The notes beneath the pieces are model-generated. The model was not told the DNA's origin, searched no databases, and saw nothing but the letters and a program-made list of their open reading frames with translations. A program made the translations under genes and the position numbers. Source: Butyrivibrio sp. (lineage in GTDB: Bacteria; Bacillota; Clostridia; Lachnospirales; Lachnospiraceae). From it: a DNA stretch of 64,000 bases. Positions 3 through 10,080 of the stretch are shown one piece after another. Every line of letters begins with the position of its first letter. Position 1 is the first letter of the stretch. The stretch lies in the NCBI GenBank assembly GCA_016291375.1, contig JAEEXE010000012.1:1-64000 (forward strand), written 5' to 3'.

Positions 3-368
3 CTTACAAATGATCTGGGACTTGTGCCTGCTAAGCAGTTCATTACTGATGATACTCCCAAGGAGTACAGAGAGGCTATAACAGAGGAGTTCAAAAAGCT
101 CAACTACGGTCTTGAAGCAGAAGTTGTATTTGAGACTGACGGCTACAAGATCCATGAAGAGATAAAGAGCCATGACTATCATGGATATCCGCTTGTTCTT
201 GGCGGCTACTATGATAAAGAAGTAACTGAGGATCTTAAAGGTAACTTCCTTAACATCTCATGGCCCGTTAAGGACAAGATAGTTCTTAATGATGCAATTG
301 TGGGTTACGAAGGCGGTATCAGACTTATCGAAGATATCTACACCGTAGCATCACAGAGATTTAACTAA
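3..368 (+). CDS. Nitrogenase component 1-like oxidoreductase subunit, 3' end (partial)
   Basis: The reading frame is open from the first bases, so this is the C-terminal ~121 residues of a gene that starts outside the window; the internal GTG at 24 is not a real start. The text around 'DLGLVPAKQFITDDTP' and the end 'VGYEGGIRLIEDIY' match the last domain of the nitrogenase component-1 superfamily (NifD/K/E/N, BchN/B-like proteins), which carries metal clusters and receives electrons from a NifH-like ATPase. The 'GYxGGxxLL' type ending is most like NifK/NifN-type chains. Which subfamily it belongs to cannot be judged without the N-terminal cysteine ligands. It is followed 56 bp later by a NifX/NafY-like gene, which supports the assignment. 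Confidence 0.8.
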   Translation, partial: LTNDLGLVPAKQFITDDTPKEYREAITEEFKKLNYGLEAEVVFETDGYKIHEEIKSHDYHGYPLVLGGYYDKEVTEDLKGNFLNISWPVKDKIVLNDAIVGYEGGIRLIEDIYTVASQRFN

Positions 369-424
369 GGCGACGACACAGTTCTGCCATAAACTGTTGT
401 TTCTAAATTGATAGAGGTAAAGCG

Positions 425-907
425 ATGTCATATTTGATTGCCGTCGCAACATCAAATGCCAAGGACGTAGACCTTGGCTTTGGTGCTGCTAGGGGGTTCC
501 ATATCTACGAAGTAGACGGAACCGATTATAAAGAAAAAGAATACAGAGAGTTTGTTGAAGACGAAAACATTAATGCAGGAGTACAGAATAAGAGTGAGAC
601 TTCTGATACTCAGATAAGCGGATGCGCAGGAACGCAGTACGGTTGCGGTGACGGTTCGCAAGGAGGCTGCGGCGGAAACGGTGGCCACGGCGGCTGCGGA
701 GGCGGCGACGGAGCACATAAGAAAGTTGAACTTATTTCCGACTGCCGAAGCCTTGTCTGCAAGAAGATCGGATTTCAAGCGCAGAAGCAGCTTGAGAAAA
801 AAGCCATTGCGGGATTCGATGTAGAGTGCAGCGTTGATGAAGCAATCGTCAAGATAGCAACGTATTTCAACAAGATAGACAATCATATAAGTCTAAGAAG
901 AGGGTAA
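425..907 (+). CDS. NifX/NafY-type nitrogenase cofactor-binding protein with Gly/Cys-rich insert
   Basis: This 160-residue protein begins 'MSYLIAVATSNAKDVDLGFG', the start of the NifB/NifX/NafY fold that binds nitrogenase cofactor or its precursors. A second recognisable part, from about residue 103 ('ELISDCRSLVCKKIGFQA' to 'SVDEAIVKI'), completes the fold. Between them, at about residues 66-98, lies an insert made almost wholly of Gly, Cys, His and Asp (CGG, HGG, CGGG runs) that I would expect to bind metal. The preceding partial gene is a nitrogenase component-1 chain, so the likely job is cofactor insertion or storage for that enzyme. The NifX link is family knowledge; the metal-binding role of the insert is inference. 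Confidence 0.8.
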   Translation: MSYLIAVATSNAKDVDLGFGAARGFHIYEVDGTDYKEKEYREFVEDENINAGVQNKSETSDTQISGCAGTQYGCGDGSQGGCGGNGGHGGCGGGDGAHKKVELISDCRSLVCKKIGFQAQKQLEKKAIAGFDVECSVDEAIVKIATYFNKIDNHISLRRG

Positions 908-920
908 GAAAAATATAGGA

Positions 921-959
921 AGAGCAAAGTCGGTGTAAATACCTGCTTTGCTCTTTTTT
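921..959 (+). terminator. Rho-independent terminator after the NifX-like gene
   Basis: AGAGCAAAG (921-929) pairs with CTTTGCTCT (946-954) and is followed by a T-run. It ends the nitrogenase-like transcript, so the ABC transporter downstream needs its own promoter. Confidence 0.85.
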
Positions 960-1049
960 AATAAGCTCAAATTATCATTCGCTATAAGCAATCTTTAATT
1001 TTCGCTTCCGTTTTCGTGTGTTATTATTCAATCAATACAAATTACCCTA

Positions 1050-1078
1050 TTGACCTAGTAGGTAAAAGGAATTATAGT
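1050..1078 (+). promoter_or_regulatory. Putative promoter/operator before the NitT/TauT-type ABC operon
   Basis: TTGACC (1050-1055) and TATAGT (1073-1078) are separated by 17 bp. An odd-centred palindrome ACCTA-G-TAGGT (1053-1063) overlaps the -35 element, a typical repressor position. One caution is that the Shine-Dalgarno GGAGG (1079-1083) lies directly behind the -10, so transcription from this promoter would start at or after it. The palindrome may therefore matter more than this exact -10. Confidence 0.4.
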
Positions 1079-1092
1079 GGAGGATAGTTATT

Positions 1093-2049
1093 ATGAAAAA
1101 ACACCTATTATTAACAATACTTATCATATCAGTGCTTGCACTCTTTGGATGTGGGAATACCAATGGTAATGGTTCGGATACCGGCTCCGGAGGAGGCAGT
1201 GCTAAGGCAGAAGAGACAGTAAAGATAGCTTATCTTCCCATAACACATTCACTTGCCGTGTTGGAAGAAGCAGATGAACTTGCAAATAATGACAAGGTTA
1301 ATGTTGAACTTGTTAAATACGGATCCTGGCCCGAACTTTTGGATGCACTTAATTCGGGTAAGGTTGACGGAGCATCGGTTCTTATAGAGCTTGCAATGAA
1401 ATCAAAGGCTGAGGGTGTAGGTATCAAAGCTGTTGCTCTCGGACATAAAGACGGAAATGTTCTCATTGTTTCTAATGAAGTTAAGGACGGAGCAGACTTA
1501 AAGGGAAGAACAATTGCAATTCCGCATCGCCAGTCTTCACATAATATTTTGGTAAATGATGCACTTGCAAAGAACGGTCTTACTATCGATGATATTAACG
1601 TCGTTGAACTTGCTCCGACAGAAATGCCGTCTGCGCTCGTTACGGGAACAATAGACGGTTACTGCGTTGCGGAACCTTTCGGTGCCGTAGGCGTTTCGAC
1701 AGGAAAAGCAAAAGTACTGTATACCTCTGAGGAGCTTTGGGAGGATTCGGTATGCTGCGCACTTGTATTAACGGATGATTTTATAGATAAGCATGCGGAT
1801 ACAGCCAAGGCATTTGTCGAAGGCTACAAGACAGCCGGAAATAATCTTGATGCTGAAGCGGCTAAGAAGATTGCAGGAAAATATCTTAAGCAGAAAGACG
1901 ATGTACTTGAAACTTCGTTGAAGTGGATTTCTTATGACGACCTTGATATCACAGAGGAACAGTATAACAAGCTCGTTGATAAGGTTAAAGAATATGGGCT
2001 TTCTGATAATCCGCCTGCATACTCTGATTTTGTAAAGACAGATTTTTGA
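1093..2049 (+). CDS. ABC transporter substrate-binding lipoprotein, NitT/TauT (SsuA/NMT1-like) type
   Basis: This 318-residue protein has a lipoprotein signal ending in 'LFGC' (Cys about residue 20), a Gly/Ser-rich linker, and a periplasmic-binding fold from about residue 45 ('VKIAYLPITHSLAVL'). Motifs such as 'GSWPELLDALNSGKVDGA' and 'TGTIDGYCVAEPFG' are typical of the SsuA/TauA/NrtA/ThiY group, which binds sulfonates, nitrate, bicarbonate or pyrimidines. The start has GGAGG 9 bp upstream. It leads a three-gene importer operon placed between nitrogenase-like genes and a CooS-like gene. The substrate cannot be read from sequence; a sulfur compound or an oxyanion is plausible from context. Confidence 0.85.
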   Translation: MKKHLLLTILIISVLALFGCGNTNGNGSDTGSGGGSAKAEETVKIAYLPITHSLAVLEEADELANNDKVNVELVKYGSWPELLDALNSGKVDGASVLIELAMKSKAEGVGIKAVALGHKDGNVLIVSNEVKDGADLKGRTIAIPHRQSSHNILVNDALAKNGLTIDDINVVELAPTEMPSALVTGTIDGYCVAEPFGAVGVSTGKAKVLYTSEELWEDSVCCALVLTDDFIDKHADTAKAFVEGYKTAGNNLDAEAAKKIAGKYLKQKDDVLETSLKWISYDDLDITEEQYNKLVDKVKEYGLSDNPPAYSDFVKTDF

Positions 2050-2099
2050 TTATATTACTTGTGATTGTTTAGTGACCGGGTAATAAGTAAGGGGACCTG

Positions 2100-2861
2100 A
2101 TGAAAAAATTACTCTCTATTAAATATGTTGTTGTATCGATACTTATATTATTGGGAATTTGGCAGCTTGCATTTACTGTAAGTGATTACAGTTCGGCTCT
2201 GTTTCCGTCACCTTTGATGGCAATTCAGGCTTTGGGCGAAATGATCGCTGACGGAACACTCATAGCTTCTATAGCTGCAAGTATGTACAGATTTGTGATA
2301 GGTTATGGATTATCGGTTTTAATAGCAGTCTTTCTTGGACTTATCCTTGGAAGCCTTCCGAAGGTTTTTAATTATGTTAATCCTTCGCTTCAGCTACTCA
2401 GACCGATATCTCCGACAGCGTGGATGCCTTTTGTGGTGCTCCTTTTTGGAATAGGAGATCTTCCTGCCATAGTTATCATTTTTATAGCAGCGTTTTTCCC
2501 GGTACTGCTTTCTACGGTATCAGCTGTAAGTAAGATCGACGATATGTACTTCAGAGTTGCGGATAATTTCGGAATCAGGCAGCCTCAGCTTATGTGGAAG
2601 GTGATCCTTCCGGCGGCATTCCCTCAGATTGCAAATGCAGTTCACCTTGCGCTTGGAAGTGCATGGATATTCCTTGTTGCCGGCGAGATGGTAGGCGCGC
2701 AGTCAGGACTCGGATTTCAGATCATTGATGCGAGAAACAATATCAGAGCTGACATTCTTTTGGCGACAATACTTGTAATAGGACTAATAGGATTGTTACT
2801 GGATTTCCTTATCGGTCTCTTGGAAAAAAGAATTCTTAAAGCCTGGGGAGGTGAGCAGTAA
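2100..2861 (+). CDS. ABC transporter permease, SsuC/TauC/NrtB type
   Basis: This 253-residue membrane protein has about six hydrophobic segments and belongs to the BPD_transp_1 permease family. The coupling region 'ADNFGIRQPQLMWKVILPAAFPQI' (about residues 155-178) carries the EAA-like loop that contacts the ATPase. 'RPISPTAWMPFVVLLFGIG' is characteristic of sulfonate/nitrate/taurine importers. Its stop overlaps the ATPase start by one base (TAATG at 2859-2863), showing tight translational coupling. It would form a homodimer in the cytoplasmic membrane with the lipoprotein encoded upstream. Confidence 0.88.
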   Translation: MKKLLSIKYVVVSILILLGIWQLAFTVSDYSSALFPSPLMAIQALGEMIADGTLIASIAASMYRFVIGYGLSVLIAVFLGLILGSLPKVFNYVNPSLQLLRPISPTAWMPFVVLLFGIGDLPAIVIIFIAAFFPVLLSTVSAVSKIDDMYFRVADNFGIRQPQLMWKVILPAAFPQIANAVHLALGSAWIFLVAGEMVGAQSGLGFQIIDARNNIRADILLATILVIGLIGLLLDFLIGLLEKRILKAWGGEQ

Positions 2862-3634
2862 TGTCATATATTCATATAGAAAATGCAGGAAAAACCTTCA
2901 TACAGAATGGCGCGCAGTTCACGGCTTTGTCGGATGTTAATCTTGATATTGAAAAAGGTGAGTTTATCTGCCTTTTGGGACCTTCGGGCTGCGGAAAAAG
3001 TACGCTTTTAAATGCTATCGCAGGTTTTGATCCCGTTAATCACGGAAGCGTTAAGATAGATGGAAACGAAGTAACCGCGCCAAGTACAAAGAATGTTACC
3101 ATATTTCAGAACTACGGATTACTTCCGTGGCGCACTGTTATCAAAAATGTCGAGCTTGGTCTCGAATCAAAAGGAATAGATAAAAAGCGCAGAAAAGAGA
3201 TTGCTAAAGAGTATCTTAAACTTGTGAAGCTTGAAAATTTTGCAAACAGTTTTCCAAGACAGCTTTCGGGAGGTATGAAACAGAGAGTCGCTATAGCCAG
3301 AGCTCTGGCTGTGGAACCTGATATCATCTTCATGGATGAGCCTTTCGGAGCGTTGGATGCAATTACAAGAATGAAGCTTCAGGATGATATTCTGGATATC
3401 TGCAAAAACGAAAAGAAGACTATCATCTTTGTGACGCATGATATTGAAGAAGCGGTTTATCTTGCGGACAGGATAGTTGTGATGACACCTAATCCCGGCA
3501 AAGTAAGAGGTGTTATCACGGTTCCCATTCATCATTTCAGAGACAGAACAAGCGGAGACTTTTTGCTGATAAGAGACAAGATCTTCGATCTGCTTCAGAT
3601 GAAGGTAGAAGAAGATATTGAATATACAATTTAA
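2861..3634 (+). CDS. ABC transporter ATP-binding protein, SsuB/TauB/NrtD type
   Basis: This 257-residue ATPase has Walker A 'GPSGCGKST' (about residue 41), Q-loop 'FQNYGLLPW', signature 'LSGGMKQR', Walker B 'IIFMDEPFGALD' and H-loop 'VTHD'. The 'LLPWRT' Q-loop context is typical of the NitT/TauT group. It completes the importer started at 1093 and is followed after 22 bp by the CooS-like gene, so these genes are probably co-transcribed. That arrangement ties the transported substrate to the metalloenzyme genes on either side. Confidence 0.92.
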   Translation: MSYIHIENAGKTFIQNGAQFTALSDVNLDIEKGEFICLLGPSGCGKSTLLNAIAGFDPVNHGSVKIDGNEVTAPSTKNVTIFQNYGLLPWRTVIKNVELGLESKGIDKKRRKEIAKEYLKLVKLENFANSFPRQLSGGMKQRVAIARALAVEPDIIFMDEPFGALDAITRMKLQDDILDICKNEKKTIIFVTHDIEEAVYLADRIVVMTPNPGKVRGVITVPIHHFRDRTSGDFLLIRDKIFDLLQMKVEEDIEYTI

Positions 3635-3656
3635 GTTAAGGTTAAGGTAGGAAAAA

Positions 3657-5756
3657 ATGAGTCATACACATTCGCATGAACACGAACATCACCATCATCA
3701 CGGCAAAAACGGACTGTCACATATTCACTCTCACAGAAACCTTATAGGTTTCGATGAGCATGGAATTCCGACAGTGACGCTTAAGGCAAGTGACCATGGC
3801 GGAGAGAGCAGTCCTGAGGATTTTACCAAGGATTACATGAACGCCGTGGCGGAATACAGAAAGACGTTTCCGTCGAAGCAGGATGTGATTGACAATACAC
3901 CCGATCCCGCCGTTCGCGAGATGATACTTAGAATGGAGCAGATCGGAATAGATACAACCTTTGACAGATTCGATGCGCAGAAGCCTCAGTGTGCATTCGG
4001 GCTTAGCGGAACCTGTTGTAAGATCTGCAATATGGGACCTTGTCATATTACCGCAAAGGCACAGAGAGGAGTCTGCGGTGCCGATGCGGATCTTATTGTG
4101 TCAAGAAATCTTTTAAGATCAGCTGCTTCAGGAGCAGCGCAGCACGGTATGCATGCCCGTGAAGTAATGCTTACACTTAAGAAAGTTGCCGAGGGAGAGC
4201 TTGATATTCCTATTCTCGGAGAGCAGAAAATAAGAAGCACTGCAGAGGCTTTCGGAATAAAACAAAAGAACAGACAGCTTAAAAACGTAGCAAGAGACCT
4301 TGCTGATGTTTTGCTTGAGGATATGTCAAGATCGGTTCCCGATGATTATAAGACGATCAAAGCCTGCGCGCTTCCCGAGAGACAGAAGGTATGGGAGGAA
4401 CTTGATATTCTTCCTATCAGTGCTTACCATGAAGTTTTTGAAGCTTATCATAAATCAGGCTGTGCTACGGATGGCGATTGGAAGAGCATAATGCAGCAGT
4501 TCCTTCGCTGCGGTCTTGCATTTACTTTTTCCGGGGTTGTCGGTGCAGGTATAGCAACTGATGCTTTATTTGGAGTAGGTGACAGAGTTACATCCAAAGT
4601 TAATATCGGAGCGCTCAAAAAGGGCTATGTGAATATTGCCGTACACGGACATCTTCCTACACTTGTAAGCCAGATTGTTGCTGCGGGCAAGAGAGAAGAT
4701 CTGATCGAACTTGCCAAGTCCAAAGGAGCTAAGGGTATCAGATTCTACGGTATCTGTTGTTCGGGACTTTCAGCGATGTACAGAGACAGCGGAGTTATTC
4801 CGCTTTCCAACGCTGTATCGGCTGAGCTTGTACTTGGAACCGGAGCGCTTGATCTGTGGGTTGCGGATGTTCAGGATGTATTCCCTTCGATCATGGATGT
4901 CGCAAAGTGCTTTAAGACTACAGTTATAACTACAAGTGATTCCGCACGTCTTCCGGGCGCCGAGAGATATGAGTATGACCATCATCACAGTAATATCGGA
5001 CAGACTAAAGAGCTTGCCGAGAAGATAGTAAGACGAGCAATAGAAAGCTTTGAGAACAGAAAAGGAATTCCTGTTTATATTCCTCCGTATGAGGTTGAGG
5101 CAGAGGTCGGATTCTCTGTAGAGTATGTTCACAAGAGATTCGGAAGTATGAAGCCGCTCGCAGAAGCTATAAGATCAGGACAGATTCTTGGCGTTGTAAA
5201 TATGGTCGGATGTAACAATCCAAAAGTACTTTATGAGAAGTGTATTATAGATGTTGCCGATGAGCTTCTTAAGAACAACGTTCTTATTATCACCAACGGA
5301 TGCGCATCCTTCCCGCTTATGAAGCTTGGATATTGTGCAATCTCAGGAAAAGAAAAAGCGGGTGAGTCATTGAGGAAATTCCTTGAACCCGACCTTCCTC
5401 CCGTATGGCATGTCGGAGAGTGTATTGATAATACACGTTCTACAGGTATATTTGCGGGAATCGCAGGTGTGCTTGGAAAGAACCTTTACGAACTTCCTTT
5501 TGCATTCTCATCACCCGAGTGGGGCAATGAAAAAGGAATTGACGCGGCTCTTGGATTCAGACTTAACGGAATCAGTTCTTATCACTGCGTCGAAGCTCCG
5601 ATCTTTGGCTCAAAGAATGTAATAGAGTTCCTTAAGCATGGTACGAAAGAGTTACTTGGCTCAACAATGAACGTAAATACAGATCCCGTAGCACTTGCCA
5701 AGCAGATAGTAGAGGATATGAAGGACAAGAGAAAAACTCTTGGCTGGGATAAGTAA
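3657..5756 (+). CDS. CooS-like protein of the anaerobic Ni-CO dehydrogenase fold, variant active site, His-rich N-terminus
   Basis: At 699 residues it is longer than most CooS proteins. Residues 1-28 are His-rich (13 His), a likely metal-binding tail. Cys112 and Cys120 fit cluster D; Cys121, 124, 129 and 140 fit cluster B. Cluster C-type ligands are visible as 'VHGH' (330/332), 'GICCSG' (367/368), 'VGCNNP' (519), 'TNGC' (549) and 'GECIDN' (589), with the active-site Lys in 'PEWGNEK' (626) and His near 163/166. The motif normally read as 'DVQC' is 'DVQD' (Asp407), so a usual cluster-C cysteine is missing. The CODH superfamily fold is clear; CO oxidation itself is doubtful. No acsB or cooF gene is nearby, and it sits downstream of the NitT/TauT-type importer. 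Confidence 0.85.
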   Translation: MSHTHSHEHEHHHHHGKNGLSHIHSHRNLIGFDEHGIPTVTLKASDHGGESSPEDFTKDYMNAVAEYRKTFPSKQDVIDNTPDPAVREMILRMEQIGIDTTFDRFDAQKPQCAFGLSGTCCKICNMGPCHITAKAQRGVCGADADLIVSRNLLRSAASGAAQHGMHAREVMLTLKKVAEGELDIPILGEQKIRSTAEAFGIKQKNRQLKNVARDLADVLLEDMSRSVPDDYKTIKACALPERQKVWEELDILPISAYHEVFEAYHKSGCATDGDWKSIMQQFLRCGLAFTFSGVVGAGIATDALFGVGDRVTSKVNIGALKKGYVNIAVHGHLPTLVSQIVAAGKREDLIELAKSKGAKGIRFYGICCSGLSAMYRDSGVIPLSNAVSAELVLGTGALDLWVADVQDVFPSIMDVAKCFKTTVITTSDSARLPGAERYEYDHHHSNIGQTKELAEKIVRRAIESFENRKGIPVYIPPYEVEAEVGFSVEYVHKRFGSMKPLAEAIRSGQILGVVNMVGCNNPKVLYEKCIIDVADELLKNNVLIITNGCASFPLMKLGYCAISGKEKAGESLRKFLEPDLPPVWHVGECIDNTRSTGIFAGIAGVLGKNLYELPFAFSSPEWGNEKGIDAALGFRLNGISSYHCVEAPIFGSKNVIEFLKHGTKELLGSTMNVNTDPVALAKQIVEDMKDKRKTLGWDK

Positions 5757-5782: not shown

Positions 5783-5836
5783 ATAGCCTCCCTAAAGATT
5801 AGCGTAATTGTGCTAACGGGGAGGCTATTGTATATT
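5783..5836 (+). terminator. Terminator after the CooS-like gene
   Basis: ATAGCCTCCC (5783-5792) pairs with GGGAGGCTAT (5819-5828), with an inner stem TTAGC (5799-5803)/GCTAA (5812-5816). A moderately T-rich tail follows. It separates the CooS-like operon from the next ABC operon. Confidence 0.7.
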
Positions 5837-5983: not shown

Positions 5984-6892
5984 ATGAAAAAGAGAACAGT
6001 TAAAAATATTATGGTAGCGGGAGCCGTGACAGCAGCAATGATGGCATCTGTAGTCGGATGCGGAAAAGAGGCTTTTGCAGGACCGGAGACTGAAGTAAAA
6101 GCTGCTGAGGAAGCAATAAGCTCAGGCGAAACCGATTCTTCCAAGAGCGAAGAGGCTTCGGGTGAAGTTACGAAGGTTATCGTCGGATCCGGAATCAACT
6201 ACAATCCGTACTGCTATGTGGATGAAAACGGAGATGCGGTCGGATATGAATATGACGTATTGAAAGAGATAGATGAGCTTCTTCCTCAATACGAATTCGA
6301 ATATCAGTCAATGGCATTCGATCAGCTTGTACTTTCGCTCGATGCCGGAAAGATAGATTTTGCGGCGCATCAGTATGAGTACACACCTGAAAGAGAGGAG
6401 AAATATCTTTTCTCGGGTGAATCATATACATCTTACATTACATACCTTGCAGTGCTTATCGATGATGACGCAACATCACTTGAGGATCTTGCGGGAGAAA
6501 AGATAAGAACGGGCGGTGCGACAAGTGCAACAACTCAGATCCTTACAAAGTGGAATGAGGAGCATCTGGGACAGGAGGTTGTTCTTGTAAACTCCGAGAG
6601 CAGTTCCGATGAAGAAGGTGCCGCTGCACTTAAGTCAGGCGCAGCAAGAGCTTCGGTTCTTAAAAAGAGTGATGTTATCAAGATGAACAAGAACTTCAGT
6701 GATGACGGAAAAGACTGGCTTAAATCGGTTGGAGAGCCTATCAACAACTCAAAGACATATTATCTGTATCGCAAGGATGAGACAGAGCTTAGAGATGCAA
6801 TAGACGGGGCTCTTAAGACACTTAAAGAAAACGGAAAGCTTTCCGAGCTTGCAATCAAGTGGGTTGGCTACGACGTAACGGAAGAGGAATAA
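5984..6892 (+). CDS. ABC transporter substrate-binding lipoprotein, polar amino-acid/cystine type
   Basis: This 302-residue protein has a lipoprotein signal ending 'VVGC' (Cys about residue 26), an acidic/Ser linker, then a type-II binding fold of the SBP_bac_3 family ('YNPYCYVDENGDAVGYEYDV', 'VLSLDAGKIDFAAHQYEYTPEREEKYLFS'). The 'PEREEKYLFS' segment is shared by amino-acid and cystine binders such as TcyJ/TcyK. A strong Shine-Dalgarno (GAGGAG) precedes the ATG. It heads a four-gene importer with two different permeases, the TcyJKLMN-like layout, although only one binding protein is present here. Cystine or another sulfur amino acid is the likeliest ligand by context; this is inference. Confidence 0.85.
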   Translation: MKKRTVKNIMVAGAVTAAMMASVVGCGKEAFAGPETEVKAAEEAISSGETDSSKSEEASGEVTKVIVGSGINYNPYCYVDENGDAVGYEYDVLKEIDELLPQYEFEYQSMAFDQLVLSLDAGKIDFAAHQYEYTPEREEKYLFSGESYTSYITYLAVLIDDDATSLEDLAGEKIRTGGATSATTQILTKWNEEHLGQEVVLVNSESSSDEEGAAALKSGAARASVLKKSDVIKMNKNFSDDGKDWLKSVGEPINNSKTYYLYRKDETELRDAIDGALKTLKENGKLSELAIKWVGYDVTEEE

Positions 6893-6896
6893 AGCA

Positions 6897-7607
6897 ATGG
6901 GAAATTATTTTAGCGCAGAAAGATTTATAAATGTCTTTCCTAAAGTGATTTCAAACTTATCGGTTAATCTTCATATAGTTTTTTGGTCAATGCTTCTTGG
7001 CACCATACTCGCGATATTCGTGGCGGTGCTTAGGATACGCAGAGTGCCTGTGATAAGCGGCTTACTAGGAATATACATTTCTTTTATGAGGGGCACGCCG
7101 CTTTTGGTACAGATGATGATAGCGTTTTACGGAATACCAATAGTACTCGGCAATCTTTTTTTGAATCTGTTCGGAATAAACCTAAACAGACTCGAACCTG
7201 TGATATTTGTAGAAATTGCGATCATTCTGAATGAGGGGGCGTTTTTAGGCGAGATATTCAGAGGCGCAATAACATCTGTACCGTCTGTTCAGGCGGAAGC
7301 AGGATACTCGATTGGGATGACGGGGGCACAAACCTTTTACAGGATTGTGCTCCCTCAGGCTTTTAAAGTTGCACTTCCGCATTATGGTGTTGATTTTATC
7401 GGAGTATTCCAAAACACATCTTTAGTTTTTATCTTGGGAGTGGTTGATCTTTTGGGAAAAGCCAAGACACTTGGAGCTGCGACGGGACATTCCTTGGAAG
7501 GATATCTTTCGGCGGCAATCATATATATTTCGTTCAGTTTGTTCCTAAAGGGAGTATTTCTTTTAATCGAGAACAGGCTAAATAACGGAACGGCAAAAGC
7601 AGTGTAA
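6897..7607 (+). CDS. Amino-acid ABC transporter permease 1 (HisM/TcyL type)
   Basis: This 236-residue membrane protein starts four bases after the binding-protein stop. It has about five membrane segments and the family motifs 'YISFMRGTPLLVQ' (about residues 60-72) and 'QAEAGYSIGMTGAQTFYRIVLPQA' (the EAA loop, about 137-160). It belongs to the His/Glu/Gln/Arg/opine permease family. Pairing with a second, different permease gene downstream implies a heterodimeric channel, as in cystine TcyLM systems. Confidence 0.88.
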   Translation: MGNYFSAERFINVFPKVISNLSVNLHIVFWSMLLGTILAIFVAVLRIRRVPVISGLLGIYISFMRGTPLLVQMMIAFYGIPIVLGNLFLNLFGINLNRLEPVIFVEIAIILNEGAFLGEIFRGAITSVPSVQAEAGYSIGMTGAQTFYRIVLPQAFKVALPHYGVDFIGVFQNTSLVFILGVVDLLGKAKTLGAATGHSLEGYLSAAIIYISFSLFLKGVFLLIENRLNNGTAKAV

Positions 7608-7619
7608 GGAGAAGGACAG

Positions 7620-8327
7620 ATGAGTTTTAGCATAACAAGTTTTTTTGATTCGTTTAAATCGGCTCTTCTCTATGCTCCGGTTACGATAAAGCTTACTGCG
7701 ATAACATTCGTAGTGAGTTTGCTGCTGGGGGCGGTGATAGCGACCGTAAGAAATTATAGGGTGCCGGTGCTTTCGCAGTTCTTTGCGGCATTTGTGACAA
7801 TATACCTTGGGCTTCCAACGATGGTTGCGCTGCTTTTATACAATCTTTTGTTTATGACTTTTTATTCGGATGTGGCGGCAGCACTTCATATTTCTGTCCC
7901 GATAAGTGACGTGAATCCGATATTTATCGGTTATATCACTCTTATAATCGGAACGACGTGTTCTGTCAGCGAGAGCATACGAGGAGCATTTCGAGGGATC
8001 GAGAAGGTGCAGTACGAAGCGGGATACAGCATAGGAATGGGCAAGTTTAAGACGCTTACGAGAATTATCTTTCCCCAGATGGTTCCGATACTTCTTCCCG
8101 GAATGCAGAATTCGCTCATAGGTCTTTTGAAGGCATCTAACTTGGTGAGCGCCATTTCGGTAGTTGAGATCATGACGGGAGCTCTTTTGCCAAGTCTTAT
8201 GTACTACAGTTATCTTGAAGGATATGTGGCGGCGGCGCTGGTGTACTGGATGATAGGAGCCGCGATAGAGATACTTGCGCATTTTGCTGAGAAAAACAGT
8301 GGGAAATATTTAAAAAGAACTGCGTAG
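7620..8327 (+). CDS. Amino-acid ABC transporter permease 2 (HisQ/TcyM type)
   Basis: This 235-residue polytopic protein has 'IYLGLPTMVALLLYNLL' in place of the usual RGTPxxVQ segment and an EAA loop 'YEAGYSIGMGKFKTLTRIIFPQM' (about residues 133-155). It is paralogous to the preceding permease and lies 12 bp behind it with a good RBS (AAGGAGAAGG). The relaxed 'RGTP' region suggests it is the partner subunit in a heterodimer and not a homodimeric permease. Confidence 0.86.
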   Translation: MSFSITSFFDSFKSALLYAPVTIKLTAITFVVSLLLGAVIATVRNYRVPVLSQFFAAFVTIYLGLPTMVALLLYNLLFMTFYSDVAAALHISVPISDVNPIFIGYITLIIGTTCSVSESIRGAFRGIEKVQYEAGYSIGMGKFKTLTRIIFPQMVPILLPGMQNSLIGLLKASNLVSAISVVEIMTGALLPSLMYYSYLEGYVAAALVYWMIGAAIEILAHFAEKNSGKYLKRTA

Positions 8328-8389
8328 GACTAAGGCGAGTGGACAGAAAAGATTTTGAGAATTAATCGGAAACAGGAAGGAATATAGCT

Positions 8390-9142
8390 GTGATAGAGCT
8401 TACGGGAGTAAAAAAGTCCTTTGGTAAACAGGAAGTTCTAAGGGATGTTTCGATAAAAGTAAATGACGGCGAAGTTGTTGTAATCCTTGGACCGAGCGGT
8501 TCGGGAAAGACGACGCTTCTTAGGAGCATAAATTTCCTTGAGAGAGCCGACAGCGGAATAATGAAGTTTGGCGAAAAGGAAATAAATTTTAAGACCGCCA
8601 AGAAAAAAGATGTGCTTTATATGAGAAGGCACACGGGCTTTGTGTTTCAGAACTACGGACTGTTTGCGCATAAAACGGTGCTTCAGAACGTGATGGAGGG
8701 ACTTGTTCAGGTTCAGAAAAAGAGTAAGTCCGAGGCACAAAGGATTGCGGAAGAGGTTCTTGATAATGTAGGAATGCTGGAAAAGAAAGATTCCTATCCC
8801 TCTCAGCTTTCGGGCGGACAGCAGCAAAGAGTGGGAATTGCGAGAGCCGTGGCGCTTAAGCCGGATCTGATATTATTTGACGAACCTACATCGGCACTCG
8901 ACCCAGAGCTTGTGGGAGAAACTCTTGAAGTAATCAAGAAGGTGGCAAAGACCGGAATAACGATGATCGTGGTGACTCACGAGATGTCTTTTGCCGAGGA
9001 TGTTGCTGACAGGGTGATCTTTATGGACGGCGGAGTTGTCGTTGAAGAAGGGAAACCGAGCGAAATATTCTATAAGCCTAAGGAGGAGCGAACCAGGCAA
9101 TTCTTATCAAGAATTATTCCTCAGGATGCATATGTTATTTAA
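8390..9142 (+). CDS. Amino-acid ABC transporter ATP-binding protein (TcyN/GlnQ type)
   Basis: This 250-residue ATPase starts at GTG (8390) behind GGAAGG. It shows Walker A 'GPSGSGKTT' (about residue 35), signature 'LSGGQQQR', Walker B '[12 protein letters not shown]' and H-loop '[15 protein letters not shown]', the last typical of polar amino-acid transporters. '[21 protein letters not shown]' gives the Q-loop; the FAHKT wording is common in cystine/glutamine ATPases. It closes the operon begun at 5984. Confidence 0.92.
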
Positions 9143-9183
9143 GTGTGGTATTATGTATAAAAATCTGTTCGGAGATTATACAT

Positions 9184-10080
9184 ATGACCATTTTACAGCT
9201 TAAATACGTAATAGCGATTGATGAGGAATGCTCGATGAGAAAGGCGGCCGACAGGCTTTATGTGTCGCAGCCGGGTCTTTCAAGTGCGGTAAGAGATCTT
9301 GAAAACGAGCTTGGAATTCAGATATTCCAGAGAGTCCATAACGGCGTTGTGACGACGGTTGCAGGCGGAGCGTTTATTGCTTATGCAAGAAGTGCGGTTG
9401 AGCAGTTTGAAAAGATTGAGGACAAGTATATCAATTCCAAGGTTGATAAGCCTACATTCTCAGTTTCCATGCAGCATTACACCGTAGCTGTAAATGCATT
9501 TATAGATACCGTTAAGGAATACGATCTTGAAGAGTATCAGTTCTCTATCAGAGAGACTCAGACAAGTGAAGTTATAGACGACCTCAAGAGCCTTAGAAGT
9601 GAAGTCGGAGTTATTGCTCTTAGCGAGTTTAACAGGAACATGTTCAAAAAGATCTTCGCTGATGCGTCACTTGAGTTCCATGAGCTGTTTACAAGAGACA
9701 CATTTGTATATCTTAGAAAGGATCATCCTCTTGCAGACAGGGATGAGATATCTCTTGAGGAGCTTCAGGATTATCCTTGTATGGTATTTGATCAGGGTGA
9801 CAACACTTCCTTCTATTACAGAGAGGAAGCTCTTGCAACCTACGATTACAAGAAGGTTATTAGTACCAACGAAAGAGCTACATCCGTAGAGCTTATGCTT
9901 GGTCTTAACGGCTACGCCGTAGGCGCTGCAATGCTTGGTGAAAGTCTTAATACTTCCCAGATTCATCATGTTAAGCTTAAAGAGGAAGAGACTCTCACCC
10001 TTGGATACATCGTCCGCAAGGGCAGTGATCTTAGCGATATGGCCAGGACCTTTATTGAAAAACTAGAGAGTTATAAATAG
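9184..10080 (+). CDS. LysR-family transcriptional regulator (CysB/YtmI-like)
   Basis: I take ATG 9184 (298 residues) and not an upstream in-frame start at 9145, because GGAG (9171-9174) lies 9 bp before it and the product then starts with the canonical LysR N-terminus 'MTILQLKYVIAI'. The winged helix-turn-helix covers about residues 1-60 ('SMRKAADRLYVSQPGLSSAVRDLE'), and the effector domain about 88-298. LysR proteins of this type often control sulfur or amino-acid uptake; in Bacillus the tcyJKLMN operon is controlled by the LysR YtmI. Its place 42 bp after the ABC operon suggests it regulates that operon. Confidence 0.85.
   Translation: MTILQLKYVIAIDEECSMRKAADRLYVSQPGLSSAVRDLENELGIQIFQRVHNGVVTTVAGGAFIAYARSAVEQFEKIEDKYINSKVDKPTFSVSMQHYTVAVNAFIDTVKEYDLEEYQFSIRETQTSEVIDDLKSLRSEVGVIALSEFNRNMFKKIFADASLEFHELFTRDTFVYLRKDHPLADRDEISLEELQDYPCMVFDQGDNTSFYYREEALATYDYKKVISTNERATSVELMLGLNGYAVGAAMLGESLNTSQIHHVKLKEEETLTLGYIVRKGSDLSDMARTFIEKLESYK

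Follow-up and report, generated by a model that had tools for sequence, protein, structure and literature searches.

A clade B carbon monoxide dehydrogenase homologue with its own importer, a likely sulfur-acquisition cassette next to a methylthio-alkane-reductase-like operon in Butyrivibrio

The clade B Ni-containing carbon monoxide dehydrogenases (CODHs) are known from genome surveys, in which groups B-1 and B-3 were paired with a NitT/TauT-type ATP-binding cassette (ABC) transporter and nickel import was proposed as its function (Inoue et al., 2019; PMC6344411). According to a later account (eLife, 2026; PMC13056359), which gives a Ruminococcus flavefaciens CODH as an example of the clade, no clade B enzyme has been characterised, the function cannot be deduced from the genomic environment and the clade is almost devoid of maturases. 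Our study concerns 64,000 nucleotides of a Butyrivibrio sp. genome (assembly GCA_016291375.1, contig JAEEXE010000012.1; hereafter the window), at the start of which the tail of a nitrogenase-like operon is followed by a NitT/TauT importer and a CODH-like gene (Table 1). The locus has in common with the published clade B CODHs the His-rich N-terminus, an Asp/Glu at the second C-cluster Cys, the type II D-cluster and the adjacent importer; nickel import or no function is offered for those (PMC6344411; PMC13056359), whereas here the genes stand in a sulfur-gene setting with an operator of the cysteine-regulon type. We consider it likely that this locus consists of two adjoining units for sulfur acquisition, the second being a CymR-type-regulated sulfur-starvation cassette in which an importer and a CODH-like enzyme would serve to free sulfur. 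The NitT/TauT partner has already been published; the sulfur-assimilation neighbourhood of the clade B-type CODHs is new.

The CODH-like protein exceeds the cut-off of the TIGR01702 (CO_DH_cata) model (493 against 478 bits). Its C-cluster and acid-base positions are occupied by H330, C368, D407, C519, C549, C589, H163 and K626, if the correspondence to the C. hydrogenoformans numbering is as we take it to be. This set matches the clade B pattern in Table 2 of PMC6344411. The protein also has a type II D-cluster (C112-X7-C120-C121) and a His-rich N-terminal start, MSHTHSHEHEHHHHH, its gene adjoins NitT/TauT ABC genes as in group B-1, and it groups with an R. flavefaciens CODH in a quick-method tree built without published reference sequences. 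By these sequence features it is probably a clade B-1 Ni-CODH homologue. Near-identical CODH loci occur in Butyrivibrio sp. INlla21, X503 and M55 and in B. hungatei. Neither acsB nor cooF was noticed at the locus, no model-based search for either having been made, and a CODH of the acetogenesis type was set aside, each genome of the genus that has any CODH carrying a single one (E<=1e-100, 13/13; acsB itself was not searched for). Clade B CODHs 81-83% identical to that of the window were seen in metagenome-assembled genomes labelled Spirochaetales, Thermoguttaceae or planctomycete (L112, L113, L121, L122), which suggests transfer or mis-binning, and plasmid pRUMAL02 of Ruminococcus albus 7, typed as conjugative, carries an importer-CODH cassette (L241).

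The setting of these enzymes was read in genomes drawn from the class (391) and the phylum (398). Among their CODH matches (E<=1e-130) we read 60 higher-scoring loci, 35 of the clade B type and 25 of other types; three class-draw genomes had been read already, 14 of 58 further places of the phylum draw were left out, and two class-draw genomes (G448, G491) were added later. Counting cysK, metY, metB, patB and sat on the same strand (reference-gene identity thresholds 38-45%), a sulfur gene lies within 3, 5 and 7 genes of the CODH in 18, 19 and 20 of the 35 clade B-type loci, as against 0, 0 and 1 of the 25 others. At a distance of up to five genes the Fisher test gives 2e-6 by loci, and by family the counts are 11/17 and 0/14. 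A second set, the named loci, comprises the best 80 of 227 relatives, all at least 80% identical; a sulfur gene lies within five genes in 22 of these 80, and in 15 of the 41 whose flanks are full.

In the CODH tree, clade B (33 rows) and a branch with a complete C-cluster (11 rows) each form one side of a branch (100*; quick method). All 11 members of the latter branch, which were labelled by context first and then found as one side of a tree branch, have cysK directly upstream of the CODH gene, and one locus added later (L239) reads cysK-cooS-ssuACB. Similar contexts have been reported: cysteine synthase and an ABC transporter stand beside cooS4 of Calderihabitans maritimus (PMC7306483), and cysteine synthase beside the cooS of Megasphaera (PMC11338639), in a gut survey whose cooS contexts include ABC-transporter and cysteine synthase genes; both resemble our 11-member branch, and the available parts of the two papers draw no sulfur role from them. 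Nor did we find a stated sulfur role for clade B CODHs in the literature searched, which included the available parts of PMC6344411, PMC11338639, PMC13056359 and PMC7306483 and lay mostly outside subscription papers; a term search of an article on Clostridium perfringens under cysteine limitation returned no mention of CODH. Neighbours met at single loci are a sulfite-reductase-like protein, TusA, HesA/JAB, a cysteine-desulfurase-like protein with an SrpI encapsulin, MetQ and Rrf2. The SrpI-type encapsulin shell gene and the cysteine-desulfurase-like (class V aminotransferase) gene were seen near the cassette at L073:1286-3893 and L083:16385-19061, the L083 pair by Pfam.

Regulatory elements of relatives point in the same direction. 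At one locus (L161) a S-adenosylmethionine (SAM) riboswitch at 5318-5426 lies 51 bp 5' of metB (5478), which is followed on one strand by a second metB, cysK, cooS, ssuA, ssuC and ssuB, no gap being longer than about 100 bp, and at two others (L145, L147) a T-box precedes sat-cysK-cooS; a TGC triplet in the L145 T-box is, as judged by eye only, compatible with a Cys specifier. These are the one SAM riboswitch and two T-boxes found before CODH operons by an Rfam scan of 28 loci of relatives, control CODH loci being outside that set. The same scan of the window gave no match at the gathering score, so that for riboswitches and T-boxes the evidence is confined to relatives. The other matches in relatives (TwoAYGGAY, pemK, tRNA, tmRNA, c-di-GMP, 6S and tRNA-Sec) have no bearing on the case; among them, TwoAYGGAY motifs lie on the opposite strand near the metY/cysK region of Pseudobutyrivibrio (L056:14935-15095, L073:16152-16311).

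Upstream of ssuA, the substrate-binding protein gene of the importer, the window has an operator-like repeat, its sole site scoring above 16 with a 21-bp matrix that was trained on 26 of 67 ssuA-upstream stretches and whose matches before ssuA are therefore not independent. Across 1.91 Mb of clade B-type loci, 55 sites exceed 16 bits and 40 exceed 20, compared with 1 and 0 in shuffled sequence; two of the 55 are counted twice, since L129 and L054 are one contig. The nearest gene is ssuA for 25 sites, metY for 11, nifB of the reductase operon for 2 and none or an unnamed gene for 8, with single cases at cysK, cysK1, cooS, rrf2, metQ, hesA, lysR, ssuB and sm104, of which the rrf2 site (L111) and the hesA site (L113) also precede ssuA. 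A Staphylococcus aureus TauABC-like operon of the same transporter type, NWMN_0115-0119, is marked as part of the CymR regulon; it has a formate-dehydrogenase-like gene and, in the operon as listed, no CODH (PMC5480029). From these sequence motifs the cassette is probably under separate control of a CymR-type cysteine regulon, a CymR-like protein being the presumed regulator.

The importer goes with the CODH. At least two of its components lie within five genes of the CODH in 29 of the 35 clade B-type draw loci, in none of the 25 other CODH loci and in 72 of the 80 named loci. Conversely, the substrate-binding protein subfamily occurs in 14 of 291 class genomes, 13 of which have a clade B-type CODH, while the remaining one (G340) has an adjoining CODH fragment with cysK, metB and patB near the two. 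The importer thus probably serves the CODH and not the reductase. Structure prediction of the binding protein (mean predicted local distance difference test score 86) and a Foldseek search, in which the closest structure was 3un6, presumably the product of the S. aureus TauABC-like operon, both left the ligand undecided. Two clade B CODHs (L149, L150) have no NitT/TauT genes within five genes, and in L149 two major facilitator superfamily transporters (Pfam) lie next to the CODH. Two small proteins that look membrane-bound, one of about 130 aa and one of about 104 aa (L083:12056-12771; no Pfam match for the pair in L083), are neighbours of the clade B CODH in 29 and 25 of the 80 loci respectively, many of them labelled Ruminococcus.

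A CODH-like enzyme with its own importer behind a cysteine-starvation-like switch, next to a sulfur-salvage operon, suggests a role in sulfur acquisition. We propose tentatively, as one possibility, that the so-called CO dehydrogenases of clade B act as Ni-Fe-S desulfurases with their own importer and, when the cell is starved of cysteine, free sulfide from a C1-sulfur or organosulfur anion that the importer brings in. The importer would take up a small compound that contains sulfur, and not nickel; at the altered Ni-Fe-S C-cluster the CODH-like enzyme would release the sulfur of this compound as sulfide, possibly together with CO or CO2, and CysK and MetY would then fix the sulfide. Suitable candidates would be thiocyanate, a possible sulfur source in the rumen, and a thiocarbonyl-like C1-S anion, the evidence favouring no one compound. 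Since CO dehydrogenase and nitrogenase show a low carbonyl sulfide-degrading activity (PMC5745022), a C1-sulfur substrate is chemically plausible. If the proposal is true, the CODH/hybrid-cluster superfamily would gain a role in sulfur assimilation that, judging by the literature searched, has not been described for it; anaerobes of the rumen and gut would have a further route to sulfur, and a famous Ni-Fe-S site would have a new reaction. On the strength of their sulfur neighbours, of the riboswitch and T-boxes and of the operator, the clade B CODHs can be given a concrete, testable role.

Several observations weigh against this assignment. Of the 35 draw loci 16, and of the 80 named loci 58, have none of the listed sulfur genes within five genes, many of the contigs being short. 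All checked C-cluster and acid-base residues are kept except one Cys, so that plain CO oxidation may still take place. Metal import would fit both the zinc in the nearest structure, 3un6, and the His-rich tail of the CODH. The operator recurs mainly in close relatives: a site above 16 bits is present in 3 of the 35 draw loci (L129, L151, L162) and in none of the 25 others, and with so narrow a range its absence from the 25 means little. The Rrf2 protein, encoded on contig C23 of the genome of the window, falls below the cut-offs for CymR (94 against 195 bits) and IscR (97 against 208). A scan of four whole genomes with a 17-base pattern (up to two mismatches) gave 21 sites, exactly as many as the reversed control, so that the count alone shows nothing and the case rests on the genes that follow, which were looked up for the real sites only. 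Fifteen of the 21 precede ssuA (4), metY and/or rrf2 (5), sufC (3), cysK (1), the nifB end of the reductase operon (1) or a sulfate-binding protein gene (1); the others precede two genes for amino-acid-binding proteins and one JAB gene, which are weaker cases, and one TcdA-like gene, while two have no clear link. Among the evidence in favour of the assignment are the five pattern sites in the genome of the window itself, which lie 5' of ssuA, metY/rrf2, cysK, sufC and an amino-acid-binding protein gene.

The strongest alternative is the published one, proposed for B-1 and B-3 by Inoue et al. (2019), in which Ni2+ or a nickel chelate is imported by the NitT/TauT transporter and held by the His-rich N-terminus of a CODH that carries out ordinary CO oxidation. 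Besides that N-terminus and the zinc in 3un6, invariant His and Cys residues in the alignment of the binding protein speak for it. The idea is nevertheless weakened by the sulfur neighbours (19/35 versus 0/25), by the SAM riboswitch and T-boxes before CODH operons and by an operator common to metY, cysK and rrf2; the placing of the S. aureus TauABC-like operon, to which we take 3un6 to belong, in the CymR regulon adds to this, and we regard nickel import as unlikely. Still less probable, in our judgement, is a scavenging role, in which CO arises from sulfur salvage or some other pathway, the clade B CODH recovers electrons by oxidising this CO, and the importer brings in a sulfur compound. Retention of the acid-base His and Lys and of every C-cluster ligand but one would suit such a role, as would the complete cluster of the cysK-linked branch, but apart from the CODH no named gene of the cassette would release CO, and maturases are almost lacking with clade B (PMC13056359; cooC and cooF were not searched for with models here).

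The locus probably holds two units, where the preliminary description had seen one system, with the importer feeding the nitrogenase-like reductase and the CooS-like protein as its electron-transfer or cluster partner. The genes do run in one direction, and the gaps are small within the importer-CooS part (50, -1 and 22 bp); between nifX and the importer, however, lie 185 bp with a terminator-like hairpin. None of 200 shuffles folded as well as this hairpin (-21.6 kcal/mol), whose sequence is identical in three relatives (L025, L026, L027), and it was not among the sites listed by a simple terminator/promoter scan. Promoter-like consensus sites number 16 in the region, with 11.7 +/- 3.3 expected. 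A search of 194 relatives, counting CODHs of at least 70% identity, found one in thirteen, 12 of the genus and one (G105) of the family. Both units share a stretch in seven of them (L025-L031), and reductase genes were not observed next to the CODH in the six other loci read (L032-L037, two of which, L033 and L035, are contigs of less than 12 kb). Conversely, eight genomes (L194-L201; seven of the genus and G087 of the family) have the reductase operon (K chain at least 84% identical) and no CODH match. The expected co-occurrence was borne out in part: of the 15 genus genomes that carry the reductase operon, 8 also have the CODH and 7 lack it (Fisher 2e-4, taking G000-G077 as the whole genus sample and ignoring kinship). 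A polar-amino-acid importer lies 3' of the reductase operon in 5 of the 7 CODH-less genus genomes, directly in L198 and after one gene in L194, L196, L199 and L200, and is absent from that place in L195, L197 and L201; in the window, then, the cassette separates two parts that otherwise often pair.

The reductase tail and the importer-CODH cassette are probably two neighbouring units, which we infer to be read as two transcripts, and a single operon of reductase, importer and CooS was rejected in view of the hairpin, the cassette's own promoter- and operator-like sites, the intervening genes and the independent distribution. The single-system reading, which we hold to be the least probable, can point to the closeness of the units (nifX and ssuA being 0 to 3 genes apart) in all 8 genus genomes with both and to component-1 genes beside the clade B CODH also in R. 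flavefaciens FD-1 (L115) and in genome G703 (L160/L189), but it is countered by those control sites, by opposite-strand genes between the units in 4 of the 8 loci (L028-L031), by the seven CODH-less genomes and by the wider pattern, in which the importer tracks the clade B CODH and a nitrogenase-like D, K or H gene is found within seven genes in 6 of the 80 named loci and within five in 1 of the 35 clade B-type draw loci.

The closest described system to the first unit is MarBHDK of Rhodospirillum rubrum (PMC12552129; PDB 9FMG), with which it shares the B, H, D and K genes. The marB/H/D/K set is complete in the relative L025, whose CODH is 100% identical (rounded) to that of the window and whose locus reads cysK, patB, metB, a small OscA-like/DUF2292 protein gene, nifB, nifX, nifH, cysK, D, K, nifX, ssuA, ssuC, ssuB, cooS, an amino-acid importer and LysR; the window itself carries the K end alone. 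Compared with R. rubrum Mar, the Butyrivibrio-type operon adds cysK, patB, metB, the OscA-like gene and the adjoining amino-acid importer. The L025 K chain has MarK as its best PDB match (9d9u/9fmg, E 6e-110; best NifK 7e-21), and its D chain matches Mar at 3e-88 and the best nitrogenase counterpart at 8e-34. Aligned by eye, the D chain keeps the [Fe8S9C] cluster ligands Cys270 and His429 and the hallmark Arg428, as well as Trp195, Phe199, Gln74 and His375, of which Trp195 and His375 lie near S2B; His194, likewise near S2B, is replaced by Ile, and Cys73 by Gly.

The L025 D and K chains score far below the nitrogenase cut-offs (nifK 105.9 against 427.3 bits, nifD 139.1 against 653.6); the NifB-like protein is below the nifB cut-off (269.7 against 343.7), and the nifH model is passed (464.7 against 394.4). 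In a K tree of 35 rows, with several long branches and midpoint rooting, three NifK-type rows (one above the nifK cut-off, two just below) sit on a branch of 2.98 (100/100*), and chains of the window type make up a separate group within the Mar-like ones; the sister of MarK is the chain of R. flavefaciens FD-1 (L115) and not the window branch. A true nitrogenase was rejected on these scores and this placement. The earlier view that the component-1 chain is not NifK and belongs to a sulfur-salvage theme holds, the chain clustering with methylthio-alkane reductase; the statement that standard nif genes are missing needs amending, in that nifB-, nifX- and nifH-like genes lie upstream in relatives, although the D and K chains miss the nitrogenase cut-offs by far. 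Positions 3-907 are the tail of a methylthio-alkane-reductase-like operon, whose enzyme may cleave the C-S bonds of methylthio-alkanes; the operon extends this type of sulfur salvage to Butyrivibrio and relatives. Other nitrogenase-like genes were seen on two contigs of the same genome (C58 and C81; L007, L008), as two additional, divergent D/K pairs 30-43% identical to the L025 chains; at L115:13025-15966, where a component-1 pair directly adjoins the clade B CODH on the opposite strand; and in G703, where a further operon (nifX, nifH, cysK, nifB, nifK, nifD) stands beside cysK-cooS-ssuACB and hesA-sir-tusA.

Table 1. Positions of the genes and putative control elements at the start of the window.
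Feature	Position	Strand	Remarks
MarK-like (nitrogenase component-1 type) gene, 3' part	3..368	+	contig edge; Pfam Oxidored_nitro 34.8 bits, cut-off 28.6
NifX-type cofactor carrier, final gene of reductase unit	425..907	+	Nitro_FeMo-Co
Intrinsic-terminator-like hairpin with T-run, 3' of reductase unit	917..958	+	minimum free energy -21.6 kcal/mol
Operator-like repeat CCCTATTGACCTAGTAGGTAA	1045..1065	+	matches sites 5' of metY, rrf2, cysK and others
Sigma-70-like promoter TTGACC-17-TATAGT, overlapping the operator	1050..1078	+	consensus match only
NitT/TauT-family substrate-binding lipoprotein	1093..2049	+	closest structure 3un6
NitT/TauT-family permease	2100..2861	+	profile match
NitT/TauT-family ATPase	2861..3634	+	profile match
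Clade B-1 Ni-CODH homologue, His-rich N-terminus, C-cluster ligands H-C-D-C-C-C	3657..5756	+	TIGR01702
Hairpin 3' of CODH gene, probable cassette end, without strong T-run	5783..5828	+	
Polar-amino-acid binding protein	5984..6892	+	Lys/Arg/Orn and cystine models, both under cut-off
Two permeases and ATPase of polar-amino-acid importer	6897-7607, 7620-8327, 8390-9142 (6897..9142)	+	
LysR-type regulator	9145..10080	+	

The six genes of the preliminary description, from the MarK-like fragment to the CODH gene, were confirmed in place, strand and type by open reading frame and Pfam/TIGRFAM profile checks. Across 121 aa the truncated first product shows 100% identity to its complete counterpart of 432 aa in L025. 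The window covers the initial 64 kb, from base 1 onwards, of contig C82, which is 72.5 kb long (assembly 88% complete); the same initial stretch also opens contig C58, so that the genes upstream of the window sit on other contigs. Contig C70 runs cysK-patB-metB-orf-nifB-nifX and ends at the start of a NifH gene, and duplicated reductase operons seem to be where the assembly broke.

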